From NCBI GenBank assembly GCA_934675095.1, contig CAKUPC010000010.1, forward strand, positions 1-45,256: a stretch of DNA of 45,256 nucleotides. The letters run 5' to 3'. Each line of letters begins with the position of its first letter. Positions within the stretch are counted from its first letter, which is position 1. Below are positions 5,631 to 26,874 of the stretch, in pieces. The translations under genes and the position numbers were made by a program. This stretch comes from an uncultured Bacteroidales bacterium. Lineage in GTDB: Bacteria; Bacteroidota; Bacteroidia; Bacteroidales; UBA932. Below the pieces are notes generated by a model that saw only the letters and a program-made list of their open reading frames with translations, was not told the DNA's origin and did no database searches.

Positions 5631-5710
5631 TCCCCCGCGATTTTATTTCGTGTTTTGCCTATTTCCCCCGCGATTTTTCTTGTGACATTCGTTACTTCCC
5701 CCGCAATCTT
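5631..5710. repeat. 33-bp-period repeat array upstream of the AbiE pair
   Basis: TCCCCCGCGATTTT starts at 5631 and 5664, and TCCCCCGCAATCTT at 5697. The intervals are exactly 33 bp, and the ~19 bp between cores are not conserved. On the strand of the AbiE genes the core reads AAAATCGCGGGGGA. The array lies in the 5' region of that operon. Confidence 0.85.
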
Positions 5711-5739
5711 GCACGGATTTTGCGTAATCTGCGGCTGTT

Positions 5740-5758
5740 TGCCCGGCCTGACCGGGCA
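5740..5758. other. GC-rich hairpin between the AbiE operon and the thioesterase gene
   Basis: TGCCCGG (5740-5746), loop CCTGA, CCGGGCA (5752-5758): a perfect 7-bp stem. It has no T-tract on either side and sits about 40 bases before the thioesterase start. It may be a regulator site or a remnant terminator. Confidence 0.45.
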
Positions 5759-5798
5759 GGTTGTGTGAGGAATTGTTTGTGAATAAAATGATGGGGAT

Positions 5799-6545
5799 AT
5801 GATGGAACCGAGACACTATAAATATACGGTAATTCCGCAGGAGATTGACTTTACCGGGAAGGCGCGCTTTTCGACGATTGTCAGCGCGATACTGAACACG
5901 GCGGGGGAGGATGCCCGGGTGAACGGGTTCGGGATTGACGTGCTGTCGGGGATTAACCTCGGGTGGGTGCTTTCCAGACTTGCTGTGGAACTCGACCGCA
6001 GGCCGCTGGAGCAGGAGGAATACGTCGTGGAGACATGGGTCACGGAATATGCGTCGCTGACGACTACCCGATGCTTCCGCTTTCTGGACTCCGAGGGGAA
6101 ATGCTTCGGACGCGCCGTGTCGAACTGGTGTCTGATTGATTTTGCGCAGAGAAGGCTCGCTCCGATGTCGAAGATTTCGGACATCGCGGGGCACACGACG
6201 ACAGACAAGCCTTTGCCTTGTGCTGTGCCTGTGAAGCTGAAACCTTTTGAAGCCGAGCCGTGTTCATCCCATAAGGTCAAGTATATGGACATCGACTTCA
6301 ACCGTCACATGAACACCCTCCGCTACATCGACCTTCTCGCTGACGAACTTCCGATAGAACTCGTCGCCGCCGACCGTCACATCCGCGTCGATATCCATTT
6401 CGTCAAGGAATCCGTCTATGGCGATGTCCTCAACATATTCAGCCTTCAGGAAGCTGACAGCTCCGATGATGTCGCCAAATACCGTATGGCAATCAAAAAG
6501 GAGGACGGAACCCTCAGTATTCTTGCACACATAGAGTCAAGGTAG
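5799..6545 (+). CDS. Acyl-ACP thioesterase
   Basis: The 248-residue double-hotdog protein of the FatA/FatB-like bacterial acyl-ACP thioesterase family hydrolyses acyl-ACP to free fatty acid in the cytoplasm. The first hotdog includes WVLSRLAVEL (56-65), and the second has the catalytic-region motif DFNRHMNTLRYID (166-178, N168/H170/N172). The length matches the family. Two adjacent ATGs (5799 and 5802) could start it. It is transcribed on its own, with a structured repeat element directly downstream. It may tune membrane lipid composition, but no partner gene is visible. Confidence 0.9.
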   Translation: MMEPRHYKYTVIPQEIDFTGKARFSTIVSAILNTAGEDARVNGFGIDVLSGINLGWVLSRLAVELDRRPLEQEEYVVETWVTEYASLTTTRCFRFLDSEGKCFGRAVSNWCLIDFAQRRLAPMSKISDIAGHTTTDKPLPCAVPVKLKPFEAEPCSSHKVKYMDIDFNRHMNTLRYIDLLADELPIELVAADRHIRVDIHFVKESVYGDVLNIFSLQEADSSDDVAKYRMAIKKEDGTLSILAHIESR

Positions 6546-6578
6546 CCTGAAATAAACTCCCGGGAGCAAAATTTCAAT

Positions 6579-6678
6579 AAAAAGATGAGATGCAAGGCGT
6601 GCGGCGAAGCCAAATACCGCAGCAACCTGATGGTTGTGAGGATTTTGGCAAGACGTGCAACGCGGCAGATCGCTTTTT
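6579..6678 (+). repeat. Structured repeat element, copy 1
   Basis: This 100-nt element is shared with 34711-34809. The conserved frame is AAAAAG...GATGCAAGGCG...AGCAACCTGATGGTTGTGAG...GCAACGCGGCAGATCG...CTTTTT. Pairings visible here: outer AAAAAG (6579-6584) with CTTTTT (6673-6678), variable arm GCCAAA (6609-6614) with TTTGGC (6644-6649), and apical CAACC (6623-6627) with GGTTG (6632-6636) around TGAT. The arms differ from copy 2 but still pair. It lies 3' of the thioesterase gene in sense orientation and could end its transcript. Confidence 0.75.
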
Positions 6679-6747
6679 CTTAAATTTTGGATGCAATGTT
6701 TTGAAAAAGTGGGATTATATATTCGGAAACAAAGAAAAACGAATATT

Positions 6748-7512
6748 ATGAAAGCAAGAAACATCATCCTTATGGCGGCGATTGCGGTGCTTTCGCTGTC
6801 ATGCTCAAAGAACACGACGGATTACTCCAAGTACTATCCGAATTATCTCCTGACCTGCAAGACTGACGACGCGGGGACATTCTATCTCCAGCTCGACGAC
6901 AAGACCACCGCGCTTCCGAAAAATGTCAGCAAGCCTCTCTTCGGCGGCAAGGAAGTCAGGGCTTTGGCAAACATCACTGACCTCGGCGAGGGAAACAAGG
7001 AAAACGGCGGCGAAGGCTTCGACAGGGTCGTTGAAATCAACACCATAGACAGCATACTCACCAAGAAGCCGGTTCCGACGCTCGGAAGCGTGGCCGAAGA
7101 CGAGAAGAAATATGGCAAGGACTATGTCGCGATCATTGACCTCTGGGCGACCGGAATTGAGGACGGCTATCTCAACCTCTGCTTCGACGCGGCGTGGGGA
7201 CGCTACGGACGGGTTCACTACATCAACCTCGTCACCGGCACCGACCCGGCCGACCCTTACACTCTGGTGCTCAGACACGACGCCAACGGTGACGATTACA
7301 TGAACGGCTCTTATGTCGCGCGTTCTTTAGTGGCATTCAGTCTGCGCGAACTTCCTGATACACAGGGCAAGACGGTCGATCTCACGTTGAAATACGACAC
7401 CCGCGACGGGCAGAAATCCGTGAAGTACAAGTACAGCAGCGGCAAGTCTGAGGACGAAACTCAGAAGCAGTCCGTGCTCAAGGGTGTTGACCTGAGCCTC
7501 AAGATTGAATAA
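6748..7512 (+). CDS. NigD-like lipoprotein
   Basis: The 254-residue protein is read from the ATG at 6748, which gives a proper lipoprotein signal peptide (MKARNIILMAAIAVLSLSC, lipidated C19). A longer frame starting upstream lacks a signal. The body matches NigD-like proteins of Bacteroidales: FYLQLDDKTTALP, an N-terminal OB-like part, GGKEVRALANITD, then INTIDSILTKKPVP and a C-terminal beta-sandwich with NLVTGTDPADPYTLVLRHD. The biochemical function is unknown. A NigD-like gene next to an ECF sigma factor and a membrane-spanning anti-sigma protein fits an envelope role. Confidence 0.85.
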   Translation: MKARNIILMAAIAVLSLSCSKNTTDYSKYYPNYLLTCKTDDAGTFYLQLDDKTTALPKNVSKPLFGGKEVRALANITDLGEGNKENGGEGFDRVVEINTIDSILTKKPVPTLGSVAEDEKKYGKDYVAIIDLWATGIEDGYLNLCFDAAWGRYGRVHYINLVTGTDPADPYTLVLRHDANGDDYMNGSYVARSLVAFSLRELPDTQGKTVDLTLKYDTRDGQKSVKYKYSSGKSEDETQKQSVLKGVDLSLKIE

Positions 7513-7646
7513 GACTGCGAAAAACAGTTTCTGTCGGTGAGGCAGTTGAACGAAATTTGCATTATGTTTTGAGGACAGGTTTGTTGGGCAGCGAAGTGCG
7601 CTTGCCGTACATGGCTGTGGAGAAAATAAATACAGACCCAAGAGAT

Positions 7647-8222
7647 ATGCAAATACGGGAACAGGAACTCATAAAATCTTCGATACGGGGAGACGCTGAC
7701 GCACGCCGGGCATTGTATGGCCGCTACGTTCAGTATCTCTCCGCCGTCTGTTCCCGCTACATCACCGGCCGCGACGACATTAAGGACATCCTTCAGGAGT
7801 CTTTCATAAAGATTTTCCGTTCGCTCGACGGCTTCGAATGGCGCGGCGATGGCTCGCTGAAGTCGTGGATGACGCGCGTCGTCGTCAATGAATGCCTCAA
7901 ATTCCTGAGGGACAATCGAAGGCTTGATATGTTCGTGACTATGCCGGAACTGCCGGATGTGCCTGAGGAAGAGGACGATGACGAGGGGCTATCCGTCGAG
8001 GACGTGCCTCCGGAGGTCGTGCATTCGATGATACGCGAACTCCCCGACGGCTACAGGACGGTCTTCAACCTCTTCGTCATCGAGGGGCGGAGTCATCGGG
8101 AAATTGCGAAAATGCTGGGAATCAGCGAGGCGACGTCGGCCTCCCAGTTTCATCGGACGAAGAAGATTCTCTCGAAAAGGATTCGGGAATATGTTTCCGG
8201 GGCAGGAGCGCAGGGCAAATGA
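7647..8222 (+). CDS. ECF-type RNA polymerase sigma factor
   Basis: The 191-residue protein is read from the ATG at 7647; a TTG-started extension of 30 codons lacks family similarity. Region 2 is YGRYVQYLSAVCSRYITGRD then DIKDILQESFIKIFRSL, with the usual DILQE-F motif for core binding and -10 recognition. Region 4 is ELPDGYRTVFNLFVIEG followed by the helix-turn-helix SHREIAKMLGISEATSASQF. An acidic linker (EEEDDDE) separates them. The next gene begins about 25 bases downstream and encodes the likely cognate anti-sigma factor, so this is a sigma/anti-sigma pair controlling envelope genes. Confidence 0.93.
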   Translation: MQIREQELIKSSIRGDADARRALYGRYVQYLSAVCSRYITGRDDIKDILQESFIKIFRSLDGFEWRGDGSLKSWMTRVVVNECLKFLRDNRRLDMFVTMPELPDVPEEEDDDEGLSVEDVPPEVVHSMIRELPDGYRTVFNLFVIEGRSHREIAKMLGISEATSASQFHRTKKILSKRIREYVSGAGAQGK

Positions 8223-8247
8223 AAAATAGACTTTGGGATATAGCTTC

Positions 8248-9771
8248 ATGAATATGAAAGAGGATTGGTTGAACAGAATACGCGAAAGTCAGGCGGATTT
8301 CTCCGAACCGGAACCGGAAGGGCTCTGGGAGGGGATTGAGGCTGGGCTTGCGACGGAGGACGGCGGGGCTTCGGCAGGCATTGAGCAGGCCGGGGCTACG
8401 ACATCGAGGGTTTCGGCCGAAAGAGCACGGACTGGAGCTTCGGATGCCGGGACTTCGGTTGAAATGGCGTCGCGTGGAGAGGCTGCGGCTTCTCGCAGGA
8501 GGCCGTCTCGCTGGTGGTGGGCCGCGCTGCCTGCCGCCGCTGCGGTGGCATTGGTGCTGTTCCTTTCCGTCCCCGGACATCGGGACGCTCCGGACGACCC
8601 GTTGAGGTCTTCTGCTGTTGCCGCCGTTGCGCCAGCTGTCCCAGTTGAATCTGCTGACTTTGCTGCACAGATTGTCCCAGTTGAGCCGGATGACTTTGCT
8701 GCCTCCATCGATTCTGCTGAACTCAAGACCACGACTGAACCGGAGCCTTTTGATGTTGTCCCACATAATGTTGCCTCCTCCGTTCCTGCCAATCTTCTGG
8801 CATATTCGGCGACACCTCCGGCTTCCGGGGCGGACATTGCCATTGAAAAATCTTCTGGAGCGTTTGCCTCCGCCGAAACCTCGCGGCAACATACCGACGC
8901 GACTGCTGGTGAGCCCGCCAAGGTTTCCGAAGAGTCTCCGAAACGGCAGGAAACCTCTTCGTGGAATAATGCTCAGAGTGACGGGTCTTCGGAAAGCCTA
9001 CTTTCGGAAAGCCAGCCCTCAGAGAATTGGCCTTCGGAAAACGACCGGTCGACCCGCAGGGCACGTCGGAGCGGTTTCAGTCTCGGTCTCCTGGCCTCGA
9101 ATGTCGCCGGCAGCCGCAGTTCCGCCTCCGAGTATGCCGCGTTATACGGCTCGACGGTCACCAAACAGATTCATGGTTTCTCTGAAACATCGGCGGATTT
9201 CCCTGACAGTCAGGGATATGCCTGCGTGATGCGCAGCAACTCCGGCAACGAGATTTCCTCCACTGTCAGGAACTGGCAGCCGGTTCAGGCCGGGGTGAGC
9301 GTCGCATACTCCTTCACGGACAGGCTTTCCATTGAAAGCGGGCTGACATATTCCTGCCTCGTCTCGGACTTGTCTTCTGGCACGCCGTCGGGCAACTACG
9401 ACATACGTCAGACACTCCACTACATCGGCCTGCCGTTGTCCCTGAAGTATGAGTTTTTGAAAGTCAAGGGATTCAGCCTGTATGCTTCGGTCGGCGGTCA
9501 GATGGAAAAATGTGTCGCCGGGAAGACGCGCACGGATTATTTCATTGACGGGAAAAAGGTCTCTTCGGAGAACGGGCGCATAATGGTGGAGCCTCTGCAA
9601 TGGTCGGTAGGTGCATATGTGGGGGCGCAATACAGTTTCAACCGTCTGGTCGGGCTGTATGTCGAACCCGGCGCCGCCTATTATTTCCGCAACGGTTCGC
9701 CCGTAAACTGCATCTATAGCGAGCGTCCTTTCAATTTCAGCCTTCGGGCGGGACTCAGGTTTTCTTTGTGA
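8248..9771 (+). CDS. Membrane-spanning anti-sigma factor with C-terminal outer-membrane beta-barrel
   Basis: The 507-residue protein has three parts. The short cytoplasmic N-terminus (MKEDWLNRIRESQADF...EGLWEGIE) is of the kind that binds ECF sigma factors. A basic stretch (SRRRPSR) precedes one transmembrane helix (WWWAALPAAAAVALVLFLSV, about 89-108). A long Ser/Ala/Glu-rich linker then leads to a beta-barrel domain from about residue 280 to the C-terminal F-S-L. The architecture suggests it crosses both membranes, with the barrel sensing the outer membrane. Proteins of this design in Bacteroides are called dual membrane-spanning anti-sigma (Dma) factors, as I recall. Two internal ATGs (8248, 8254) are both possible starts. 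Confidence 0.8.
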   Translation: MNMKEDWLNRIRESQADFSEPEPEGLWEGIEAGLATEDGGASAGIEQAGATTSRVSAERARTGASDAGTSVEMASRGEAAASRRRPSRWWWAALPAAAAVALVLFLSVPGHRDAPDDPLRSSAVAAVAPAVPVESADFAAQIVPVEPDDFAASIDSAELKTTTEPEPFDVVPHNVASSVPANLLAYSATPPASGADIAIEKSSGAFASAETSRQHTDATAGEPAKVSEESPKRQETSSWNNAQSDGSSESLLSESQPSENWPSENDRSTRRARRSGFSLGLLASNVAGSRSSASEYAALYGSTVTKQIHGFSETSADFPDSQGYACVMRSNSGNEISSTVRNWQPVQAGVSVAYSFTDRLSIESGLTYSCLVSDLSSGTPSGNYDIRQTLHYIGLPLSLKYEFLKVKGFSLYASVGGQMEKCVAGKTRTDYFIDGKKVSSENGRIMVEPLQWSVGAYVGAQYSFNRLVGLYVEPGAAYYFRNGSPVNCIYSERPFNFSLRAGLRFSL

Positions 9772-9800
9772 ATATATAAATATAAATAAATCAATTGATT

Positions 9801-10295
9801 ATGAAAAAGTTAATATTTATGATTATGAGCGTGGCCGCGCTGTGCAGCTGCGGAAGCGGAAAGAAAGTTGATGCGTCAAAGGCGATTCTCGGGGACTGGG
9901 AAATCGTCGATGCCGGCGGAAAGGCGGTCGCGCCGGGCTTTGACAAGGCCACAATTTCATTTGACGAAAAGGGCGGCGTCCACGGAAACACGAGTATCAA
10001 CTATTTCTTCGGCGAGTACAGCGTGAAGGGCGACGGAATCAGTTTCGGCAATGTCGGGCTCACCAAGATGATGGGGCCTACGCCGGATGTCGAGAGGGCT
10101 GTCGTCGATGGGCTCAACACCGGAGTGAAGCTGAAGTTTGAGGACAATGACAATGCGGTCGTGCTTTCAAAGGACGGCACTGAGGTTCTGAAGCTCAGGA
10201 GAACTGAACTCAAGGAGGAAGAGAACGGCGGGACTCCTGTAGAAAGCGCCGGAGAACCGGTCGCCGCTGACCAGAAGGCCGTGGTGGTTGAATAA
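9801..10295 (+). CDS. META-domain-like lipoprotein
   Basis: The 164-residue protein starts at the ATG at 9801 with the lipobox LCSC (C17). The body (LGDWEIVDAGGKAV..., ATISFDEKGGVHGNTSINYFFGEY, then ISFGNVGLTKMMG) matches the META/HslJ-type fold, including the G-N-x-x-N-x-F-x-x-Y pattern and the TKMMG motif. The Glu/Val-rich tail is low complexity. It lies 29 bases after the anti-sigma/barrel gene and is probably in the same transcript, so it may belong to that regulon. The molecular function of META lipoproteins in Bacteroidota is unknown. Confidence 0.8.
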   Translation: MKKLIFMIMSVAALCSCGSGKKVDASKAILGDWEIVDAGGKAVAPGFDKATISFDEKGGVHGNTSINYFFGEYSVKGDGISFGNVGLTKMMGPTPDVERAVVDGLNTGVKLKFEDNDNAVVLSKDGTEVLKLRRTELKEEENGGTPVESAGEPVAADQKAVVVE

Positions 10296-10339
10296 TCAGA
10301 ATAACTGGACAAAAATATCTTCTAACCTTGCGGTTTAGC

Positions 10340-11539
10340 ATGAAGAAACTTGGGATATTATTGATTCTTTTTGCGTTGAGCGCCGATATGCTCTCTGCCC
10401 AGACAGTGGACAGGGAGCATATCGGCGTTTCCGCATTTGCCCGCGGCGGTCATCTGATGGACGGGATGGGCATCTATGAAAACCTCATCGAGACGCGCGA
10501 CTTCGCCTCTGCCGGAGTCATGGTCGGGCTGAACACGCGCCCTGAGGATGAAGACTGGTATGCCTGGGCATATAATTTTCCTCATTACGGAGTAGGCTTT
10601 TCCTACGCGAACATGAGCGGGGTGAAGTGCCATCCGGAGTCGGCCTCGGGCCTCGGCGATGTCTACACTCTTTTCGGCTATGCGCACTTCGACTTCTTCA
10701 AGACACGCCGTTTCTCGTTCGGTCCCAATCTGGAACTCGGCACCTCGTTCATGACCCGCAAGTGGGACGCGGTGACGAACCCTAAGAACTGGTATGTCGG
10801 CACCTCCGTGCTCATTATGGTCGGAGCCGGACTTGAGGCTGCGTTCCACATCACTCCGAAGTGGACTGCCGGCGCCAATGTCATGCTTACCCACCGCTCC
10901 AACGGAATGCTCCGCACGCCGAACTTCGGTCTGAACGAGCTTGCCGCCGGCGCGTTTGTCCGCCACGACCTGGCCGACAGGCACCTCGGGCGCAGGGGCA
11001 AGGCTCCGGAACGCCCGGACTTCAGGAAATGGCTGTTCGACATCTATTTCTCCGGCGGGGTGCACAGCTGCGACGCGGAGCGGGGAGTCTATCTTGACCA
11101 TGTGCTCAAGGAGGGCGAGGACAACCGCTGGGGCTCGTTCCGCCCATGGCTGCGCCTGAACCTCGGAGGCACTGCAATGTACCGCTACCATCCGATTTTC
11201 GCGACCGGAGTCGGCGTGGATGTTTCCTACACACAGAACTGGAGACGCCTCGGGGAATACTACGAACTCGTGCACGGAACAGCGGCAAAAACCTGCCCCG
11301 TCTATGTCGGAGCCTATCTCCAGCAGTCGTTCTTCTACCGCAACGTCGAGGTCGGCATAGGCCTCGGAGTCTATCTTTTCAAGAGACTCGGCATCGAGGA
11401 CTCGACCTGGAACTACCAGCGCGCCCTCATCCGCTGGCACCTTCCGAAAGCCGCCGGCATCTTCCTCGGCTTCGCGATGCGCGCCCACCGCTTCGACCGC
11501 TCCGACACCCTCGAATTCTCCCTCGGCAAGCGTTTCTGA
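10340..11539 (+). CDS. Acyloxyacyl hydrolase, PagL-like lipid A 3-O-deacylase
   Basis: The 399-residue precursor has a signal peptide ending near SADMLSAQ. PagL enzymes are outer-membrane barrels that remove an acyl chain from lipid A. The catalytic pattern is visible: H185-x-S187 in LTHRSNGML, with E200 thirteen residues after the serine in FGLNELAAG. The protein is longer than classical PagL (about 170 residues) but typical of Bacteroidota members, which carry extra barrel strands. The ATG at 10340 gives a clean signal peptide; a TTG at 10328 is less likely. It follows the META lipoprotein gene by 44 bases and may be co-transcribed. A perfect 13-bp inverted repeat spans the signal-peptide codons. 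Confidence 0.85.
   Translation: MKKLGILLILFALSADMLSAQTVDREHIGVSAFARGGHLMDGMGIYENLIETRDFASAGVMVGLNTRPEDEDWYAWAYNFPHYGVGFSYANMSGVKCHPESASGLGDVYTLFGYAHFDFFKTRRFSFGPNLELGTSFMTRKWDAVTNPKNWYVGTSVLIMVGAGLEAAFHITPKWTAGANVMLTHRSNGMLRTPNFGLNELAAGAFVRHDLADRHLGRRGKAPERPDFRKWLFDIYFSGGVHSCDAERGVYLDHVLKEGEDNRWGSFRPWLRLNLGGTAMYRYHPIFATGVGVDVSYTQNWRRLGEYYELVHGTAAKTCPVYVGAYLQQSFFYRNVEVGIGLGVYLFKRLGIEDSTWNYQRALIRWHLPKAAGIFLGFAMRAHRFDRSDTLEFSLGKRF
10381..10427. other. 13-bp perfect inverted repeat inside the signal-peptide region of the PagL-like gene
   Basis: CGCCGATATGCTC (10381-10393) is the reverse complement of GAGCATATCGGCG (10415-10427), with a 21-nt loop. In mRNA it would form a stable hairpin about 40 bases into the coding sequence. 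Confidence 0.8.
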
Positions 11540-11566
11540 CCCCCTCCCAGCGACCTGATGGCATCT

Positions 11567-11667
11567 ATAGTTGTGCGCTAACCCGATTTTTCAAGGCGTT
11601 AGCGCACAACTATTTTATTTATTGTTGTGCGCTAACGCATTTTTTGAACCACTTACCGCAAAACAAT
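11567..11667. repeat. Two tandem inverted-repeat units upstream of the HigBA-like pair
   Basis: Unit 1: ATAGTTGTGCGCTAAC (11567-11582) and its perfect reverse complement (11598-11613), loop 15 nt. Unit 2: ATTGTTGTGCGCTAAC (11621-11636) and an imperfect partner (11652-11667, three mismatches), also with a 15-nt loop. The half-sites alternate in orientation every 27 bp exactly. Unit 1 is followed by TTTTATTTATT and could also terminate the PagL-like transcript. Confidence 0.85.
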
Positions 11668-11775
11668 AATGGCAGATGACGCTCGACGATTTGTTCAAAC
11701 CTTTGTAAAAAATCCGGGCCGTTTTATGTTATGACTATGGTTGTATTATATTGAAACTTTTTATATTTTTGCACC

Positions 11776-12104
11776 ATGACACGACGAATTGTCAGCTACG
11801 GCGGATACTTTGAAGTTTTATGGAGACATTGACACCAAAAGAGCAGGAGAAAATCAAATATGGCTTGCTTCTGCTTAAGGCTCAGAATCGAATATCCACA
11901 AAATTTGTCAAGCATCTTAGGGATGGAATCTATGAATTGAGGACATTGTACGAAGGAAATATCTTTAGGGTATTCTTTATCTTTGATGACGGAAACATAG
12001 TTGTCCTATTCAATGGATTCAAGAAGAAGTCGCGGAAAACGCCGTTGGGGGAGATAGAAAAGGCAATAAACATTAAGAATGAGTATTATGCAGACAAACA
12101 ATAA
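11776..12104 (+). pseudogene. HigB/RelE-like toxin with an apparent frameshift near its start
   Basis: The open frame beginning at the ATG at 11820 encodes 94 residues (METLTPKEQEKIKYGLLLL..., LRDGIYELRTLYEGNIFRVF, FIFDDGNIVVLFNGFKKKS), a phage-derived Gp49/HigB-type mRNA interferase. Family members normally begin about 15 residues earlier. Those residues (MTRRIVSYGGYFEV) are encoded from 11776 in a different frame, and one extra T in the TTTT run at 11816-11819 would join them. It is therefore a frameshifted toxin, a sequencing error, or a toxin expressed from the internal ATG. The antitoxin gene overlaps its 3' end. Confidence 0.7.
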
Positions 12105-12399
12105 TCAAATCGTTGATTATGACACTGTTCTTGACAGCGAGTTTGGCGCTGTCGGCACTCCGGAGCGGGCGAGAGCTGAGGAACGGGCATACGGCTTCTA
12201 TTCCGGTCAGATTATTTTGGAGGCGAGAAAAGAAGCGAGGATGACGCAGAGTGCGGTCGCCGACAAGATAAACGCTTCGAAATCCTATATCTCAAGAGTC
12301 GAGAAGGGCGCAATAATTCCGAGCGTCGGGACATTCTACAGGATTGTTAATGCCCTTGGAATGCGGGTCGAGATTGTGCCCGAACACTCCATGGCTTGA
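12079..12399 (+). CDS. HigA-like XRE-family antitoxin
   Basis: The 106-residue protein has a Cro/C1-type helix-turn-helix: ARMTQSAVADKINASKSYIS (about 54-73), then RVEKGAIIPSVGTFYRIVNAL. This is typical of HigA antitoxins that neutralise HigB and repress the operon. The toxin-first order and the overlap of its start (ATG at 12079 or 12088) with the toxin stop at 12104 are the standard HigBA arrangement. The antitoxin looks intact although the toxin frame is disturbed. Repeat arrays flank the pair on both sides. Confidence 0.88.
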   Translation: MSIMQTNNNQIVDYDTVLDSEFGAVGTPERARAEERAYGFYSGQIILEARKEARMTQSAVADKINASKSYISRVEKGAIIPSVGTFYRIVNALGMRVEIVPEHSMA

Positions 12400-12440
12400 T
12401 TTCCTTGTTTTCGATTGATTATTAAATATTTAAGAGCAAA

Positions 12441-12532
12441 TTCGGTAGATTATGACAAATCCGTTCGGTAAGTTGGGACTGTTTCGTTCGGTGATTTGTG
12501 ACCTATTTGTTCGGTAGTTTGGAGATGACGGC
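12441..12532. repeat. 23-bp-period repeat array between higA-like gene and aroK
   Basis: TTCGGT occurs at 12441, 12464, 12487 and 12510, exactly 23 bp apart, each followed by a partly conserved spacer (commonly A/G-rich, then TT, then GAC near the middle of the first three). The last unit covers the final codons of aroK, so the array overlaps coding sequence. The orientation of the array and its owner gene are unknown. Confidence 0.8.
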
Positions 12533-17097: not shown

Positions 17098-18558
17098 CTA
17101 AATGTACGCGCCCATCTTGAGGATATTGACCTCGCCCTCGGTGAGGTAGCGCCAGTCGCCCCTCTTGAGGTTCTTCTTGGTGAGGCCCGCGAAATAGACC
17201 CTGTCAAGCGCCTTCACGTCGTAGCCGAGCGATTCGAAGATGCGGCGGACGATGCGGTTCTTGCCGGAGTGGATTTCGATTCCTATCTTGCGGTGGTCGT
17301 TCTCCTCGATGTAGTCGAGGGCGTCAGCCGCGACATCTCCGTCTGAGAGAGTCACGCCTGAGAGAATCTTGTCGTAGTCCTCCTGCGAGAGGTCCTTGTC
17401 AAGCGAAACCTGATAGATTTTCTTCTTGTCGTATGCAGGGTGCGTGAGCCTTTCGGCAATCTCCCCGTCGTTGGTGAACATCAGCACTCCGGTGGTGTTC
17501 TTGTCGAGCCGTCCCACAGGGAATACCCTCGCGGTGCATTTCTTCAGAAGGTCCATCACGGTCTTCTCGGCGTGCGGGTCGGAAGTCGTGGTCACGAAGC
17601 CCTTGGGTTTGTTCATAACGATATAGACCTTCTCCTCGCCGTGAAGCCTCTCCCCGTTGAAGCGGACATCGTCCTTGGTGACGTTGATTTTCGTTCCGAG
17701 CTCGGTGACCACGCTTCCGTTGACGGTTACGCAGCCCGCGAGTATGAAGTTGTCGGCCTCGCGCCTTGAGCATATTCCGGAATTGGCGATGTACTTGTTC
17801 AGACGGCACTCCTCCTTGAACGGAATTGCCACGTTGTCGTTGTCGGACAGCCTCTCCTGCTCGAATTCCTTCCTCCTGTTAATCATCTGCCCGATTCCGC
17901 TCTCGTCCTCGGCGCGGAACATCGGCTTAGGTGCAGGACGCTTCTTGCCTCCTTTTGCTCCCGGCTTTGCCGCCTTCTTGAATCCCGGTTTCTTGTCTCC
18001 GTTGAATGAAGGCTTGCGGTTATCACCGTATGACGGCTTCCTGTTCTCGCCGAAACCGCGACGCTCTCCGGAAGGTCTCTCGCCGCCGAACGACGGCTTC
18101 CTGTCCCCGTAGGAACGACGCTCCCCGTAGTTGTTCTCGCCGTCTGCCTGGCGGAATTGCCTGCGCTCTCCGGAGTTTCCGTATGACGGTTTTCTGTCTC
18201 CGTAAGGTCTCCTTTCACCGCCGAACGAAGGCTTCCTGTCCCCGTAGGAACGGCGCTCTCCGTGACTGTTCTCGCCCTCTGCGGACGAGCGGTATGGCCT
18301 TGCCGGCCTGTCACCGTAGCTTCTTCTCTCCCCGTAAGGTTTTCTTTCTCCGTAAGGACGGCGTTCACCCCTCTCGGCGAAGGCCTCTCCGCTGTCCGAT
18401 GACGTGATGTACGGGCGGTCCTCCCTTTTGCCCGTGATGATGCGGCGGCGTCTCCCGCCATTCTCTGAATGTGACCTGTAAGGTCTTGATTCGTTGTTGC
18501 CGTACTCCCTACGGCCTTCAGTGCTGTGGTCGTTGCCACCTCTTTCGTTGTTCTCCAT
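17098..18558 (-). CDS. rluB: RluB/RsuA-type pseudouridine synthase with a long Arg/Gly/Tyr-rich N-terminal tail
   Basis: The 486-residue protein isomerises a uridine in ribosomal RNA. An S4 RNA-binding domain (CRLNKYIANSGICSRREADN) is followed by the catalytic domain with GRLDKNTTGVLMFTNDG, whose Asp is the nucleophile, and KKKIYQVSLDKDL. The first ~230 residues are low complexity and highly basic, with repeats such as GERRSYGDRKPSFGGERRPY that are repeated at DNA level as well. The tail is probably disordered and RNA-binding. Tails like this are common in Bacteroidota homologues. It is the first gene of the rluB-era-parC operon. Confidence 0.92.
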   Translation of the reverse strand: MENNERGGNDHSTEGRREYGNNESRPYRSHSENGGRRRRIITGKREDRPYITSSDSGEAFAERGERRPYGERKPYGERRSYGDRPARPYRSSAEGENSHGERRSYGDRKPSFGGERRPYGDRKPSYGNSGERRQFRQADGENNYGERRSYGDRKPSFGGERPSGERRGFGENRKPSYGDNRKPSFNGDKKPGFKKAAKPGAKGGKKRPAPKPMFRAEDESGIGQMINRRKEFEQERLSDNDNVAIPFKEECRLNKYIANSGICSRREADNFILAGCVTVNGSVVTELGTKINVTKDDVRFNGERLHGEEKVYIVMNKPKGFVTTTSDPHAEKTVMDLLKKCTARVFPVGRLDKNTTGVLMFTNDGEIAERLTHPAYDKKKIYQVSLDKDLSQEDYDKILSGVTLSDGDVAADALDYIEENDHRKIGIEIHSGKNRIVRRIFESLGYDVKALDRVYFAGLTKKNLKRGDWRYLTEGEVNILKMGAYI

Positions 18559-19421: not shown

Positions 19422-19422
19422 T

Positions 19423-20591: not shown

Positions 20592-20634
20592 ATCCCTTAA
20601 ATTTTAAATTTTTTCAAAAATTCCAAATAACCTG

Positions 20635-20642
20635 CAAAGATA
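20635..20642 (-). promoter_or_regulatory. Bacteroidota -7 box for exbB
   Basis: On the minus strand TATCTTTG matches TAnnTTTG, about 45 bases before the exbB start. I do not see a good -33 box. Confidence 0.5.
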
Positions 20643-20688
20643 CAAATTTTCTCGAAATCTTGCCGATGAAAGTTACGGCATCGCGCCA

Positions 20689-21816
20689 TCACAGTAGCCA
20701 TTCAGTCCAGTTGTCGGGAGTGACGATGGCGGTCTGCTCGACGTCATAGGTTTCAAGGAATGCTTGGGGCAATTTAGTTGAGGCTTTTTTCGGGTTGAAC
20801 TTCATCTCGAATAAGGTGAAGCGTCCGTCTTTCTCTTCTACATAGTCAATTTCCTGCTGCTGGGTGGTGCGCCAGAAATAGCTTTTCGCTAAATTCCCGG
20901 CATAATGATTCTGTTTCATCCGTTCTCCTATCACAAAGTTCTCCCACAGCGCTCCTGTGTCCTGACGCATGGAGAGGGGGGCGAAGTTCTGAAGAATTGC
21001 GTTACGGATGCCGTTGTCGTAGAAATATATCTTCTTGCTTTTTTTTAGTTCTGTCCGCAGGTTACGGCTGAATCCGTTGAGGCGAAACACGACGAAACAC
21101 TTTTCCAGCAGGTCAATGTATTTCTCCACTGTCTTGTTGTCCGTTCCTATGGTCTGGGCGAGTTCGTTGTAGGACACTTCGGATGACAGCTGCAGGGCGA
21201 GGGCGATCAGAAGCTTTTCGAGCAGGGCGGGTCTGCGGATGTCCTCTATGGCAAGCAGATCTTTATATAGGTAGCTCCCTGCGATGTCCATCAATATCTT
21301 CTTCGATTCTTCCGGGCGGGAGAAAACTTCCGGATATGATCCGTAAATCAGTCTCTGTTCAAGAGTCTGTCTGACAGGGAGCAGTCCTTCTGATGCACAA
21401 ATCTCTGCGGATGAAATTGGAAAAAGCTGATACTCAAATTTCCTGCCTGTCAGAGGCTCATTCAATTTGTTCCTGAGTTCAAATGAAGATGAACCGGTGA
21501 CAAGCAGCTGAATGTCGGGAAAATTGTCAACTATGCGCTTCAGTGTCATTCCGATTCCCGGAACCGACTGGGCCTCGTCAATCATCACAATCTTGTTATT
21601 TCCGATGAGCAGCTTCAAGTCCGATGTACCGGCATCCGTCAGCAGAGTCCTGACTTCGGGCTCGTCACAATTCATTCGGAGAACAGGCTCGTCGCGGTGC
21701 TCCAGAAGCATCTTGAACAAAGTGCTTTTCCCGACCTGCCTGGCTCCGATGACAATGATCGCCTTTCCTTGAAACATGTCATTCTCTATCACGTCCTGTA
21801 AAGTGCGCCTTATCAT
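20689..21816 (-). CDS. AAA ATPase with DUF4143 and C-terminal nuclease-like fold
   Basis: The 375-residue protein has Walker A GARQVGKST (24-32) and Walker B IVMIDEAQ (D80, E81), then RLNGFSRNLRTELKKSKKIYF and DTGALWENFVIGERM. This is the AAA_14 plus DUF4143 layout. Near the C-terminus QEIDYVEEKDGRFTLFEMKF shows the D...E-x-K spacing of PD-(D/E)XK nucleases. Such genes are numerous in Bacteroidota and behave like mobile accessory genes with unknown function. It is an isolated gene with an inverted-repeat array just upstream. Confidence 0.85.
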   Translation of the reverse strand: MIRRTLQDVIENDMFQGKAIIVIGARQVGKSTLFKMLLEHRDEPVLRMNCDEPEVRTLLTDAGTSDLKLLIGNNKIVMIDEAQSVPGIGMTLKRIVDNFPDIQLLVTGSSSFELRNKLNEPLTGRKFEYQLFPISSAEICASEGLLPVRQTLEQRLIYGSYPEVFSRPEESKKILMDIAGSYLYKDLLAIEDIRRPALLEKLLIALALQLSSEVSYNELAQTIGTDNKTVEKYIDLLEKCFVVFRLNGFSRNLRTELKKSKKIYFYDNGIRNAILQNFAPLSMRQDTGALWENFVIGERMKQNHYAGNLAKSYFWRTTQQQEIDYVEEKDGRFTLFEMKFNPKKASTKLPQAFLETYDVEQTAIVTPDNWTEWLL

Positions 21817-21856
21817 ATCCTTATGATTTTAATTGTTGTAGCAAAGGTAAGTAATC

Positions 21857-21924
21857 GGGACTATAATCCCAAATTTTATGTGAATTTTGGGATTACAATC
21901 CTAAAATTAAGCATAATTTTGGGG
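21857..21924. repeat. Inverted-repeat array upstream of the first AAA ATPase
   Basis: GGGACTATAATCCC (21857-21870) and GGGATTACAATCCT (21889-21902) are dyads 32 bp apart, and a third GGGG half-site follows about 32 bp further (21921-21924). AATTTTGGG-like sequence is shared between units. The array ends about 40 bases upstream of the ATPase start. Confidence 0.65.
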
Positions 21925-22043
21925 TTGATGATGTAAATCCGAAATCATCGCAAATGCAATACCTGCTTTCACAGTTGGCATAAAAGAGAATCGCGCTTGA
22001 TTCACACCGAGCGCGATTCAAATTCTAACCTAAAACTTAACCT

Positions 22044-22112
22044 ATGAAAAAACTATTCGATGGGATTCATTTGCAATGTCTGTGCCAAAACTGTGAAAAA
22101 TTGCTAAAATAA
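22044..22112 (+). CDS. Possible 22-residue peptide, uncertain
   Basis: ATG at 22044 with a complete frame of 22 codons ending in TAA: MKKLFDGIHLQCLCQNCEKL and two more residues (L, K). It follows AACCTAAAACTTAACCT and the 10-bp hairpin, and its 3' half overlaps the right arm of the long inverted repeat. Three cysteines are clustered. No Shine-Dalgarno sequence is obvious. It could be a leader peptide, a tiny protein, or chance within a structured RNA. Confidence 0.2.
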   Translation: MKKLFDGIHLQCLCQNCEKLLK

Positions 22113-22185
22113 ACGAAAATCTGCGTTTTTTCTTGAAACTAGTGTGATCTTTCCGAATAATGGCAAGAAAAATCGCGTTTCATTT

Positions 22186-22878
22186 TCAGAAACGGCTGAT
22201 GATGCGGGGCACATCCATTATTGATTCGGCTTCAAAGACCCTGTCGGAGTCCGGCATCTCGGCGAACTCGTGCGCCCAGACCATCTCGTGCGGGACATGA
22301 ATCGCGCGGCCTCCGATCTCAATCACCGGGACGATGTCCGACTTGACCGAGTTGCCGACCATCACCAGTTCTTCGGGGGAGAGGTCGAACTTGCGGCAGA
22401 GTTCGAGATAGTTTCTCCTGTCCTTGTTCTCCAGCACCTCGATGTGGTGGAAGTAGCCGTCGAGCCCGCACTGGCGGTACTTGCCCATCTGCTCCGTCAG
22501 GTCGCCCTTCGTCGCCACGGCCATCTCCCAGCCCATTCCGCGCACGGCCTCAAGAGTCCGCTCCACTCCTTCTATTATATGGAGCTCATGGAAGGCGAGT
22601 TCCGTGATGATTTTCTTTATTCCATAATATATCTCCTTACGCAGATTTCCGCCGCAGAGCTCGACTGCCGTGTCCGTCATTCCGAGCATATAGGTCTTGG
22701 AACCGTAGCCGAAGAGGGGGATGTTTGCCTCCTGCTTTTCCCAGAGAGTCTGCTGTATGGCTTCCGCCTCGGCGTCCTTGTTCAGGAGCCCGGCAAATTC
22801 CTTTTCAGCGTTTCTGAAATAGCCCTCGTTTTCCCAGAGCGTGTCATCGGCGTCGAAAAAGATTATTTTTCTCGTCAT
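22186..22878 (-). CDS. HAD-superfamily hydrolase
   Basis: The 230-residue cytoplasmic phosphatase has motif I DADDTLW (D9 nucleophile, D11 acid/base), motif II VATKGD (T123), a Lys at about 152, and motif IV GNSVKSD (175-181). A helical cap lies between motifs I and II. It resembles YjjG-like or phosphoglycolate-phosphatase-like HADs; the substrate cannot be inferred. It follows the peptidyl-prolyl isomerase gene by 18 bases and is probably co-transcribed from the promoter near 23703. Confidence 0.88.
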   Translation of the reverse strand: MTRKIIFFDADDTLWENEGYFRNAEKEFAGLLNKDAEAEAIQQTLWEKQEANIPLFGYGSKTYMLGMTDTAVELCGGNLRKEIYYGIKKIITELAFHELHIIEGVERTLEAVRGMGWEMAVATKGDLTEQMGKYRQCGLDGYFHHIEVLENKDRRNYLELCRKFDLSPEELVMVGNSVKSDIVPVIEIGGRAIHVPHEMVWAHEFAEMPDSDRVFEAESIMDVPRIISRF

Positions 22879-22896
22879 TTCCTTTCCTCCCGCCGC

Positions 22897-23652
22897 TTAG
22901 TCTTCAACTTTTGTTTCCGCCGCAGTGCTGTCGGCATTCTGAAACGCGGGGCTCTCCGTTTTCGCGAGGCTGTCGGCCGCCTGAACTCCGGCGCTGTCGG
23001 CAGGTTCCTCCTGCGGCGTCTCGACCGGCCTTATCGTGATGATGCGTATGTCATTCACCGGCCTGTCCCTCCTGTCCGTCGGCGCGGCGGCAATCCTGTC
23101 TATGACGTCCAGGCCGTCGATTGTCTCTCCGAACACGGTATATTGCCCGTCGAGGTGTATGCAGTTCATCTCGTCCTGGACTATGTAGAACTGCGAGCCG
23201 CTTGAGGACTTGCGCGGATTGGCGACATCACCGCGCCGCGCGGCGGCGAGCGCTCCCTTCTTATGGTAGTATTCGTTCACGAACTCCGCGGGAATGGTGT
23301 AGTCCGGACCGCCCTGCCCGTAGAGCTCGGTCTTGGAGCTGTCGCGGGTGTAGGGGTCGCCCGTCTGAATCATGAAGCCGTTGATGACCCTGTGGAAGAG
23401 CAGGCTGTCATAGTAGTGCTCGCTCACGAGCTTGCAGAAATTGTCCCTGTGCCTTGGGGTCTTGCTGTAGAGTTTCACACGGATTGTTCCCTCCGTCGTG
23501 ACGATGTCGAATTCCGGTTCGCTGTTCTGTACCATAATTATACTGTCTTTCTGTTCTTCCGCAACTTTTTTTCCGCCTTTGCGATTGCCGCATGAGGCAG
23601 CACATAAGCATATAGTTATGGCTGCCGCTAAAATGAATCCCGTTCTTCTCAT
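22897..23652 (-). CDS. Cyclophilin-type peptidyl-prolyl isomerase lipoprotein
   Basis: The 251-residue protein is read from the ATG at 23652; the upstream extension is non-coding. It has a lipoprotein signal (MRRTGFILAAAITICLCAASC, C21), so it acts in the periplasm or at the outer membrane. The cyclophilin core includes TPRHRDNFCKLV, FHRVINGFMIQTGD, GSQFYIVQ and LDGQYTVFGETIDGLDVID, with the catalytic Arg in FHRV. It catalyses cis/trans proline isomerisation during folding. The C-terminal tail is Ala/Glu-rich. It is the first gene of a two-gene operon with the HAD hydrolase. Confidence 0.92.
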   Translation of the reverse strand: MRRTGFILAAAITICLCAASCGNRKGGKKVAEEQKDSIIMVQNSEPEFDIVTTEGTIRVKLYSKTPRHRDNFCKLVSEHYYDSLLFHRVINGFMIQTGDPYTRDSSKTELYGQGGPDYTIPAEFVNEYYHKKGALAAARRGDVANPRKSSSGSQFYIVQDEMNCIHLDGQYTVFGETIDGLDVIDRIAAAPTDRRDRPVNDIRIITIRPVETPQEEPADSAGVQAADSLAKTESPAFQNADSTAAETKVED

Positions 23653-23702
23653 ATATGGCCTTATGATTTGCGCGGAGGGACTGTCCTCCGGATTTTGACG
23701 TG

Positions 23703-23732
23703 CAAAGTTAGAAAAAACCATTTGCTCCGCAA
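23703..23732 (-). promoter_or_regulatory. Promoter for the peptidyl-prolyl isomerase/HAD operon
   Basis: On the minus strand a TTG box (23730-23732) is separated by 19 bases from TAACTTTG (23703-23710), a good match to the Bacteroidota -33/-7 consensus. It is about 50 bases before the start codon. Confidence 0.6.
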
Positions 23733-23740
23733 GGGGTGGC

Positions 23741-23773
23741 TTGTTAAAAATATATAAAAATTGACTAATTTTG
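23741..23773 (+). promoter_or_regulatory. Promoter for the flippase gene
   Basis: TTG (23741-23743), 22 bases, then TAATTTTG (23766-23773), matching TAnnTTTG. It lies about 50 bases before the flippase start, divergent from the isomerase promoter. Confidence 0.55.
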
Positions 23774-23825
23774 CGCCGATGAAAAGAATGCTTCGGCTAT
23801 ATATTATATATAGGTATATGTCATA

Positions 23826-25394
23826 ATGGCAAAGAATCCTCTGAAACAGCTTGCCGGCGAGACCGCCGTCTATGGGCTGAGCACGATACTCGCCCGCATA
23901 ATAAATTTCATGTTTGTCCCGTTCTACACGAGGCTGCTCACCACGGCGAACTATGGCGTGGTGACCGAGTTCATGGCCTACATAGCCGTGCTGCAGGTGG
24001 TTCTCGTCATGGGGCTGGAGACCGGATGCTTCCGCTTCGCCAACAAGGAGGGAGCGCAGCCGAACAGGGTATATTCGAGCGCCCTCGCCATGGTCAGCGC
24101 GGAGAGCTTCGCCTTTCTCGCGCTCATGATTGTCTTCGCGAAGCCGCTCGCGCATCTTCTGGGCTACGACGGCTACGGGAGCTGCATGATGTATATGGGT
24201 GGAATACTCGCGCTCGACAGCATCACGGCCATCCTCTTCGCGAAACTCCGGCAGGAGCACTGCGCCGTCAAGTTCGCGGTGTTCAAGACCGTGAAGATTC
24301 TGGTGGAGACGGGCGCGAACATCCTGCTGTTCTTCCCGTTCGTCTCCTTCTGTTCCCGCCGGGCGGCCGCTCTCGGGGTCGAGGTCTCGCAGCTCACCCC
24401 TTCCGACGTGTGGCTGCTGCATTTCATAAGCCCGACTCCCGACTTCAGCTATGTGATTTTCGCGATTTTCCTCAGCTGCATAGTCTGTGCGCTGCTTTTC
24501 ATTCCGGATCTCATACGCCTGAACTTCGAGTTCGACGGACGGCTGCTCCGACAGATGCTCGCATATTCCCTCCCGCTGATGGTCGCGGCTCTCCCCGGAA
24601 TAGTCAACGACTTTCTCGACCGCATACTCTTCCGTTTCCTCGACACCAACGCGGAGCAGTGGCAGTCGAGCCTCGGCGTGTTTCAGGCGGCGGTGAAGCT
24701 TGCGGTCATCATGAACCTCTTCATCCAGATGTTCCGTTTCGCGGCCGAGCCGTTCTTTTTCCAGCGGGCGAAGGACCGGGGCAGCAAGGAACTCTACGCG
24801 AGGGTCATGGAACTCTTCACGGCGTTCTGCGGACTCGTGTTCCTCGGCGTCATATATTATATAGACATCATCTCGCTGCTTCTCGGACGCGATTTCCGCA
24901 GCGGGGTCGGCGTGGTTCCGATAATGCTCTTCTCCTATATGATTTTAGGGATGCTCTTCAACGTGTCGATGTGGTATAAGCTCTCCGGCAAGACGAACAT
25001 GGCAATCTGGATAACATCAGCGGGGCTTGTCGTGACAATAGTCGTCAATCTCGTCTTCATGCCGAAGTATTCCTACTGGGCCGCGGCCTTCGGACATCTC
25101 GCCAGCTATGTGACGATGTTCGTTCTCAGCGCGGTACTCGGGCAGAAGCACTGGCCGATTCCCTACCGCTGGGGCCGCATCCTCGGCACCCTCGCCCTGA
25201 TGTTCCTCTTCTACGGCGTCGCGGCTCTGATTGACACCCAGCTTTTCCACTTCGCCGGATGGGACACCGACCGCCGCCTCCTCTGGTGGAAGCTCGGGGT
25301 CCACACCGTCCTCCTCCTCGGCTACCTCGCCTCCGCCTGGGCGCTCCTCCGCAAGGGCATTCCGACGACAGACGGTCAGACCGTCACTGACTGA
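23826..25394 (+). CDS. Wzx-like lipid-linked oligosaccharide flippase (MOP superfamily)
   Basis: The 522-residue integral membrane protein has about 14 hydrophobic segments along its whole length. The N-terminus (LAGETAVYGLSTILARIINF, then FVPFYTRLLTTANYGVV) is the polysaccharide-biosynthesis flippase signature, and ALPGIVNDFLDRILFRFLD lies mid-protein. It should move undecaprenyl-linked sugars across the inner membrane for O-antigen, capsule or exopolysaccharide. No glycosyltransferases surround it, so the substrate is unknown; in Bacteroidota such solitary genes are frequent. Its stop lies 3 bases from the stop of the convergent ATPase gene. Confidence 0.9.
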   Translation: MAKNPLKQLAGETAVYGLSTILARIINFMFVPFYTRLLTTANYGVVTEFMAYIAVLQVVLVMGLETGCFRFANKEGAQPNRVYSSALAMVSAESFAFLALMIVFAKPLAHLLGYDGYGSCMMYMGGILALDSITAILFAKLRQEHCAVKFAVFKTVKILVETGANILLFFPFVSFCSRRAAALGVEVSQLTPSDVWLLHFISPTPDFSYVIFAIFLSCIVCALLFIPDLIRLNFEFDGRLLRQMLAYSLPLMVAALPGIVNDFLDRILFRFLDTNAEQWQSSLGVFQAAVKLAVIMNLFIQMFRFAAEPFFFQRAKDRGSKELYARVMELFTAFCGLVFLGVIYYIDIISLLLGRDFRSGVGVVPIMLFSYMILGMLFNVSMWYKLSGKTNMAIWITSAGLVVTIVVNLVFMPKYSYWAAAFGHLASYVTMFVLSAVLGQKHWPIPYRWGRILGTLALMFLFYGVAALIDTQLFHFAGWDTDRRLLWWKLGVHTVLLLGYLASAWALLRKGIPTTDGQTVTD

Positions 25395-25397
25395 CTA

Positions 25398-26750
25398 CTA
25401 CAGCAGCCCTGTCATGTACAGCGGCAGATAGACAATCCCGTCATCGGACTTAAGGTCGGCTGTGTGCAGCACATAGGGGACGGAAAGATAGTCGCCGTAC
25501 TTTGCCATGCATTTCTTGAGCGACGTGAGAGTGTATCTGCTTGTGGATTTCACTTCTATCGGTGAAATGTTATGTTTCGCAGTGATTGTGTCCTTGGCAA
25601 TCAGAAAGTCCAGTTCCATCCTTTCTGACGCATCGTCCTTATTATATTTGGAAAAGAAATATAGTTTATGCCCGGCGGAGCGAAGCATCTGAGCCACGAT
25701 GTTTTCAATCACCATACCGCCGTTAAACTCCAGCTTGTCCGTAAGGAGTCTGTTATATAGATTTTCGGCAACGATGGTGTTTTCGTTGAATGCATGGCTT
25801 ATAAGCAGGCCGGTGTCGGCCATATAGCATTTCAGCGTGGTGTCGTCGGTATTCAGACCGAGTCCGATGCTGGGCTCTGTAGTGTTGTAGGCCATATTCA
25901 CAATCATCGCGTCGGACAGCCAGAAAAACGAGGTTTCATAGTCCCGCATCCTTGCGCCTTCGGTGAGAGCCTTCAGCATAAACTTCTTCTCGTGTCTCTG
26001 GAGCTGAGAAGGGATGGTGTCAAAGACCTTGGTGACCTTTGATGCGTATGTGGAGGCATATTTCTGTATATCATTGCGATAGAGAGTCAGGATCTGACGC
26101 TTTATGTGATCGGCTTTCCTGAAATCCCGCGTCTCAGCATATTTCGCAACCGCCTGCGGCATTCCGCCGACAATCAGATACTGTCTGAAATAGTCCATTG
26201 CCTTGCGGTGCATCACCTGCCCCATCTCATGCCGGGTCTCGAAGTTCCTGCGGACAAGGGGCATGAGCGTCTCGTTGTCCATAGCCCAGAGAAATTCCTC
26301 AAAGTCCATGGGGAACATCAGGATTTCCTCCTCTTCCGACGGTATCATTATATTTTCCACATTCTTCTTGATGGAGACCAGCGACCCCGTCTCTATGTAG
26401 TCGTAGCGCCCGTCTTCCACCAGATATTTGATAGCCGCACGCGCCCTCGGATAGAGCTGTACCTCGTCGAAGATTATCACCGACTCACGCGGGTAGAGCG
26501 TGGTGTTGGCATAGCTGCTCAGATACATGAAGAATGTGTCCAGGTCATCCAGGTAGGTGTCGAAGAGTGATCTGACATCATTCCCGACTTTGTTGAAGTC
26601 AATCAGGATGTGACTCCTGTATTCGTTCCGTGCGAACTCCTTGGCGATGTAGCTTTTGCCGACACGCCTCGCCCCGTTGATGAGGGCAGCGCTTTCCCCG
26701 TTCTTTTCTTCTTTCCATTTCAGAAGACTGTCGTATGCCTTTCTTTTCAT
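25398..26750 (-). CDS. AAA ATPase with DUF4143 and PD-(D/E)XK-like C-terminus
   Basis: The 450-residue protein has Walker A GARRVGKSY (26-34) and Walker B VIIFDEVQ (D95, E96). An alpha-helical middle includes FRQYLIVGGMPQAVAKY, typical of AAA_14/DUF4143 ATPases. The C-terminus has MELDFLIAKD and, about 10 residues later, SPIEVKST, a D...E-x-K nuclease-like site. The function is unknown. It is only distantly similar to the ATPase at 20689, so the two are not recent duplicates. A four-unit 33-bp-period array begins 8 bases before its start codon. Confidence 0.87.
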   Translation of the reverse strand: MKRKAYDSLLKWKEEKNGESAALINGARRVGKSYIAKEFARNEYRSHILIDFNKVGNDVRSLFDTYLDDLDTFFMYLSSYANTTLYPRESVIIFDEVQLYPRARAAIKYLVEDGRYDYIETGSLVSIKKNVENIMIPSEEEEILMFPMDFEEFLWAMDNETLMPLVRRNFETRHEMGQVMHRKAMDYFRQYLIVGGMPQAVAKYAETRDFRKADHIKRQILTLYRNDIQKYASTYASKVTKVFDTIPSQLQRHEKKFMLKALTEGARMRDYETSFFWLSDAMIVNMAYNTTEPSIGLGLNTDDTTLKCYMADTGLLISHAFNENTIVAENLYNRLLTDKLEFNGGMVIENIVAQMLRSAGHKLYFFSKYNKDDASERMELDFLIAKDTITAKHNISPIEVKSTSRYTLTSLKKCMAKYGDYLSVPYVLHTADLKSDDGIVYLPLYMTGLL

Positions 26751-26758
26751 GTTTTCTG

Positions 26759-26874
26759 CACCTATCCGCGATTATTAAAATCCATGTTTTACACCTATCC
26801 GCGATTATCGAAACTCGAATTTCACACCTATCCGCGATTAAGTCCGACTGCAAAATTACACTAATCCGCGATTA
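26759..26874. repeat. 33-bp-period repeat array directly upstream of the second AAA ATPase
   Basis: CACCTATCCGCGATTA at 26759, 26792 and 26825 is identical in all three copies at 33-bp intervals, with a variant CACTAATCCGCGATTA at 26859 (34 bp). The ~17-bp spacers differ. On the coding strand the core is TAATCGCGGATAGGTG. The nearest unit ends 8 bases before the ATG, so the array occupies the leader and probably the promoter. Confidence 0.93.

Follow-up and report, generated by a model that had tools for sequence, protein, structure and literature searches.

Gene-specific repeat arrays before DUF4143 ATPase genes of Bacteroidales and other bacteria as putative tandem operators

Orc1/Cdc6 proteins and STAND activators such as MalT are ATPases that sit on repeated DNA sites, and type III toxin-antitoxin systems (ToxIN-like) carry tandem repeats directly before the effector gene. 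Here we analysed repeat arrays in a stretch of 45,256 nucleotides from an uncultured Bacteroidales bacterium (contig CAKUPC010000010.1, positions 1 to 45,256; hereafter the window), and it was found that arrays with gene-specific cores precede DUF4143 ATPase genes in the window and many relatives of these genes. The two DUF4143 ATPases of the window, encoded at 20689 (ATPase 1) and 25398 (ATPase 2), match PDC-S01, a phage-defence candidate that is described as an ATPase fused to a PD-(D/E)XK member (PMC12988326). The same paper ranks PDC-S01 fourth in frequency among prokaryotic defences and states that most candidates of this kind still await validation, and a rumen survey gives it as the most frequent single locus (PMC13356809). 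In the open-access papers searched, no mention of upstream arrays of PDC-S01 or DUF4143 genes was found, and nothing was found there on how PDC-S01 works.

Both window ATPases matched the PADLOC PDC-S01 models strongly, with E-values of 8.8e-164 (ATPase 1) and 8e-110 (ATPase 2), in agreement with the fusion architecture given in PMC12988326. The AAA_14 and DUF4143 domains were both above the Pfam gathering score in these two proteins and in four relatives; ATPase 1 additionally matched AAA_22, and no ToxN-kind effector was among the Pfam matches of either window protein. Across 23 sequences, residues E379, E399 and K401 were invariant and D381 was conserved in at least 90%, with the E-x-K motif present; the C-terminus is of the PD-(D/E)XK type and is predicted to be a nuclease. 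The fold resembled the archaeal ATPases 2qen and 2fna, CED-4 and NLRs, and Orc1/Cdc6 on origin DNA was among the Foldseek matches, a list from which the absence of a family does not exclude it. The ATPase and winged-helix part has a STAND/Orc-like fold.

The likeness to Orc1/Cdc6 and MalT lies in the fold family of the ATPase part; unlike them, the DUF4143 ATPase has a C-terminal nuclease-like domain, and the putative sites lie before its own gene and vary among genes. The arrays resemble type III systems in that tandem repeats of comparable length immediately precede a putative effector gene, but the protein family is different, only the cores of the repeats are conserved, and the arrays lie mostly upstream of the likely promoter (in a presumed Bacteroidota set). 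With toxin-antitoxin autoregulatory operators such as those of AbiEi, the arrays would have in common that the promoter contains repeated sites for the protein encoded by the gene itself. Published AbiEi operators are inverted repeats (PMC7319586), whereas DUF4143 arrays are direct repeats of two to seven cores, mostly at 32–34 bp; their core is not the same in different paralogues, and they precede a single-gene system. An autoregulatory operator array is a known idea; new here are its proposed tie to this family and the change of the core from gene to gene.

All five array sites of the original prediction were re-scored against dinucleotide shuffles of the same stretch. The array of ATPase 2 comprised four units at 33, 33 and 34 bp (26759–26874) and scored 14/14, which was equalled by 0/300 shuffles. 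A genome scan first reached four related loci, and the closest relatives of this gene carried an array in the corresponding position whose core was different (TAATCGCGGATAGGTG for the window gene, TAATCTAAGTTAGGTG in Segatella copri, locus L001, and AAAATTCCTGGAATCGTG in a Bacilli metagenome-assembled genome, L002); the repeats of L003 were less regular. Among the other DUF4143 genes of the same genomes, some had 33-bp arrays of yet other cores and some had no array. A three-copy test was defined by a score of at least 11/14 within 300 bp before the start. By this test, a three-copy repeat was present in 39/121 DUF4143 genes from the window, four seed genomes and 60 Bacteroidia genomes, 28 of which had a match (one of 122 genes was dropped, having less than 200 bp upstream). 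None of 70 control genes of the same loci reached this score; 1/10 further controls, which share DNA with a DUF4143 upstream region, did. In a FastTree tree the arrays clustered in certain clades, with 26/35 tips of the ATPase 2 clade (clade 1) labelled as array-bearing, one of them, L090, wrongly: its apparent 18-bp period was a false call from distal repeats.

For clade 1, sampling was extended to Bacteroidia (41/295 genomes with a match) and Bacilli (92/247), and named records were also taken in; at most five candidates per genome were scored in the Bacteroidia and later Bacillota searches and at most seven in Bacilli. One gene of 113 was dropped. A score of at least 11 was obtained for 69/112 genes against 0/2240 shuffles, and 67/112 carried 3–7 copies at 32–34 bp; L090 and L003 (42 bp) belong to the 69 and were left out of the 67. 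The remaining 45 genes, these two included, were subjected to a two-copy test (at least 13/16 at 32–33 bp, near the start). A proximal two-copy repeat was found in 29/45, L090 and L003 among them, while shuffles gave 0.03 per gene, predicting about 1.4. Seven of the 11 named loci had three-copy arrays; since these are from Segatella, Agathobacter, Collinsella, Glaesserella and two gut phage-collection scaffolds, the arrays cross phyla. The named loci L183, L185, L187 and L188 failed the test, L187 having two copies. The two scaffold loci, L179 and L189, are clade-1 ATPase genes with arrays on human-gut scaffolds deposited as phages, which may be phage or contaminating bacterial DNA.

The thresholds had been chosen while viewing these first sets and were fixed only for a replication, in which 42/48 further Bacillota genes passed, every one with a period of 32–34 bp. 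The three-copy test accounted for 24 (8/2400 shuffles) and the two-copy test for 18 (104/2400 shuffles). This set came from 40 regions picked among the matches listed and nine loci, with one of the 49 loci left out for its short upstream region. Many of its genes come from genomes that had already contributed other paralogues, and the arrays of L306 and L343 are the same; the replication genes are therefore not fully independent. In a larger control set, 2/164 genes scored at least 11, and both hits were the array beside the abiE genes of the window seen from its two neighbours; eight DUF4143-like controls had been removed, and 18 controls whose DNA overlaps a DUF4143 upstream region were counted apart (4/18 scored).

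In the clade of ATPase 1 (clade 2), the two-copy test was passed by 21/37 genes against 8/1110 shuffles, with a period of 32 in 17 of these 21, and the three-copy test by 8/37 against 1/1110. By eye, the cores were often palindromic and varied among genes; TATTCACC...GGTGAATA and GGGGATTATAATCCCC are examples. ATPase 1 itself showed only two clear units, 32 bp apart (21857 and 21889). Its direct repeat was weak, being equalled by 13/300 shuffles, and with 13/16 it narrowly missed the two-copy test; the units were clearly palindromic (0/60 shuffles), and these GGGATTATAATCCC-like units fit the clade-2 class. The expectation that repeated cores specific to each gene would recur before related DUF4143 ATPases was thus borne out in both clades and in the replication, as was the scarcity of arrays before unrelated genes. 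The arrays of the DUF4143 ATPases are real, common and clade-specific. Arrays were also seen before DUF4143 genes outside both clades, namely L017 and L027 (23 bp), L104 (22 bp), L131 and L033 (33 bp), and a palindromic core such as TCCCTCATTGAGGGA occurred there.

Distant genes had different cores, while close relatives often had the core in common, and one subclade shared a TTACCCTnAnTTTGTnACA type core. When three cores were searched genome-wide, exact matches occurred in the own array only; near-matches elsewhere all had three mismatches, numbering 12 against 21 in a reversed control for the first core and two against none for the second. The window and L179, whose proteins are 86% identical, agreed at 54/56 core positions and 33/68 spacer positions. 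With the same mask, which counts only columns alike between copies in the first sequence and so favours cores, identities in cores and spacers were 81/87 and 54/88 for L159/L160, 43/48 and 29/47 for L149/L156, 52/56 and 24/35 for L122/L178, and 51/59 and 36/63 for L179/L001. The L179 array contained the window core three times (one with a change) and a fourth copy, TAATCTAGGATAGGTG, part-way to the L001 core. Beyond overall identity, core similarity tracked protein residues 246–260 and 236–250 (max-corrected p of 0.015 and 0.019). The pattern indicates sites under selection whose reader moves together with the gene. The ATPase 2 core was also considered as a phage target and rejected: the exact 16-mer matched viral contigs once, in a long open reading frame (ORF) without a surrounding array, and this ORF looks like a phage portal gene.

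The array before each DUF4143 ATPase gene is probably the gene's own tandem operator, bound by its own STAND/Orc-like ATPase. In both clades the arrays consist of two to seven copies of a core of about 14–20 bp, mostly repeated every 32–34 bp and placed shortly before the start codon. The ATPase, with its winged-helix-like region and PD-(D/E)XK-type C-terminus, would bind the cores as double-stranded DNA, at asymmetric sites in clade 1 and at dimer-like sites in clade 2, and the bound ATPase would repress its own promoter. Up to about 20 DUF4143 genes were found in one genome, and cores that differ between paralogues would prevent cross-regulation among the many copies of such a genome.

Several observations weigh against this reading. 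No array was recognized by either test in 16/112 clade-1 genes, nor in 6/48 genes of the replication; 16/37 clade-2 genes, ATPase 1 of the window among them, failed their test, and many DUF4143 genes outside the two clades are without an array, as is reflected in the overall proportion of the first survey. Between the window and L001 the cores (39/55) were little distinguished from the spacers (35/67), L149 and L119 were nearly identical in both, and the bias of the core mask applies to all pairs. The covariation of residues and core was weak (partial r 0.19), and the permutations leave some shared ancestry in it. Finally, the position of some arrays relative to the likely promoter and the folding of the leaders, both given below, are on the same side.

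A different function of the same arrangement, which seems unlikely, is that the array is a self-address, a sequence present only before the gene and read by its own product, where the ATPase-nuclease would be held as an inactive, ordered STAND row and activated when infection disturbs that stretch of the chromosome. If this were true, address and reader would change together, which would allow up to about 20 DUF4143 genes per genome without cross-talk.

We consider it quite unlikely that the repeats act as RNA, either as a transcribed leader with repeated binding sites or as a type III antitoxin-like RNA before an effector gene, although repeat length and place do recall type III systems. The position of the promoter was approached through 46 presumed Bacteroidota arrays, chosen by how the loci were obtained. 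A -7-like box, for which we take the consensus to be TAnnTTTG, was present before the start in 36/46, and 10 were without it. All copies lay upstream of the box nearest the ATG in 19/36 arrays and all but one in a further 11/36, whereas most copies lay downstream of it in 6/36, the window gene included; L001, L179, L006 and L180 likewise have most copies after the box. In the window, a TTG at 26879–26881 stands 20 bp further upstream of the possible box TAATTTTG. The leaders folded slightly better than shuffles, with a mean z of -1.03 and 17/67 below -2. On the other side, the cores alone were conserved and not the whole unit, clade-2 cores were often palindromic, and the motif of L086 was the reverse complement of that of L193 and L194; the palindromes and this reversed pair fit DNA binding. 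The earlier proposal of either one protein bound repeatedly to DNA or repeated RNA sites can accordingly be narrowed: since the clade-2 cores are often palindromic, the copies lie mostly upstream of the putative box in the presumed Bacteroidota arrays and one motif has opposite orientations before two genes, DNA sites would explain the arrays better than RNA sites.

Binding of the arrays by a host protein other than the ATPase is also rather improbable. Helix-turn-helix (HTH) genes lie near several loci, and DNA binding by the ATPase is itself a prediction; however, one general regulator does not fit, because the core differs among paralogues of one genome and, in three genome searches, was found exactly only in its own array, and core similarity tracks part of the ATPase.

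The original prediction had placed constant-interval arrays near abiE, higBA and both ATPase genes, and these were confirmed on re-measurement, the one before ATPase 1 being weak as a direct repeat. Beside abiE, units at 5631, 5664 and 5697 had an exact 33-bp spacing and a three-copy score of 12/14 (0/300 shuffles as good). Upstream of higBA, perfect 13-mers stood at 11570 (+), 11598 (reverse complement) and 11624 (+); the inverted pair matched at 13/13 positions (0/60 shuffles), and a fourth half-site was weak. Downstream of higBA, GTTCGGT at 12463, 12486 and 12509 and ATTCGGT at 12440 were spaced by 23 bp (0/300 shuffles), a period that is also that of the arrays at L017 and L027. A scan of the whole 45 kb at a three-copy score of at least 11 gave two clusters only, 5628–5712 beside abiE and 26754–26878 before ATPase 2, and no cluster was obtained in three block-shuffled windows. 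The claim that housekeeping operons are without arrays holds at this score only, for both higBA-side arrays and the ATPase 1 repeat are themselves below it. The features of the window are collected in Table 1.

Table 1. Coordinates of genes and repeat elements in the window
Feature	Position	Strand	Basis or remark
ATPase 1: AAA_14 + DUF4143, PADLOC PDC-S01, clade 2	20689..21816	-	profile searches, tree
ATPase 2: AAA_14 + DUF4143, PADLOC PDC-S01, clade 1	25398..26750	-	profile searches, tree, model
AbiEi antitoxin gene	4959..5537	-	profile searches
AbiEii toxin gene	4250..4957	-	profile searches
HigB-like (Gp49 family) toxin (11820-12104) and HTH antitoxin (12079-12399)	11820..12399	+	profile searches
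Orphan 33-bp array, three units	5631..5710	.	TCCCCCGCGATTTT, third copy TCCCCCGCAATCTT; between the AbiEi and acyl-ACP thioesterase genes
Alternating 13-mers upstream of HigBA	11570..11636	.	
23-bp array	12440..12515	.	flanked by the HTH antitoxin gene and the 3' end of a shikimate kinase gene
Two palindromic units, 32 bp apart, before ATPase 1	21857..21902	.	GGGACTATAATCCC, GGGATTACAATCCT; weak alone, resemble clade-2 arrays of relatives
ATPase 2 array	26759..26874	-	coding-strand cores TAATCGCGGATAGGTG x3, TAATCGCGGATTAGTG x1; spacing 34, 33, 33
ATPase 2 core positions	26859-26874, 26825-26840, 26792-26807, 26759-26774	-	
Possible -7 box TAATTTTG, immediately downstream of the first core	26851..26858	-	putative, by consensus

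It had further been proposed that the arrays belong to one regulatory or mobility system common to AbiE, HigBA and the ATPases. This now appears very improbable, and a common regulatory system was not supported. The AbiE-side and ATPase 2 arrays do have a 33-bp period and the sequence AATCGCGG in common, and the latter is real; it is not telling as a sign of kinship, since 139/2211 array pairs have some 8-mer in common, and the AbiE-side array shares one with 3/67 clade-1 arrays. Period and symmetry vary from place to place. By the same test, an upstream array was present in 0/18 AbiEi relatives, only one of which was close (L221, which is the L220 gene, with 53% identity and an E-value of 1.9e-84; E-values of the remaining 17 ranged from 8.5e-16 to 8.4e-6, and L238 lies in an odd 450-residue frame). 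It was likewise present in 0/25 evaluable HigB relatives, examined on the upstream side (30 loci, of which four had no start and one was short). Least of all can the arrays be taken as neutral tandem duplications without function, which is hardly credible: L149 and L119 differ by exactly one unit, indicating that units are gained or lost, but the copies of an array, and likewise the arrays of relatives, keep similar cores and differ in their spacers, and the arrays are clade-specific and narrow in period.

The AbiE-side array has the clade-1 period and no adjoining ATPase gene. It may be a relic, a site that a DUF4143 protein elsewhere reads in trans, or an element of another kind. A search for AbiEi in plasmids and one for the AbiE region in phages gave no match, and the AbiE-side core pair had no match in viral contigs. 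In the AbiEi relatives L223, L226, L227 and L237, the likely promoter was seen by eye to be surrounded by short inverted repeats such as GTTTCTGTTTATTT...AAATAAATAGAAAC, which agrees with what the published AbiEi operators predict. The hairpin formed by the first pair upstream of higBA has a folding energy of -28.5 kcal/mol (z -6.2), carries a U-rich tail and follows the end of an ORF by about 28 bp; its plain reading is therefore a terminator. A simple terminator scan did not list it, the loop being probably longer than the scan allows. Two other repeats were seen in the window. A 12-bp tandem repeat, TAGTTTTATCGG, with 4.2 copies and 97% match, lies at 2057–2107 inside a minus-strand ORF, and many short direct repeats at 17986–18369, within the coding sequence 17098–18558, suggest a repetitive N-terminal region of that protein.

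For the DUF4143 ATPases, if the arrays are the operators of their own genes, each gene-specific array would be a predicted DNA ligand for its protein, and this for most genes of a large clade. The family would then offer dozens of protein-site pairs for the study of DNA recognition by this fold and of the way in which cross-talk between paralogues is avoided.

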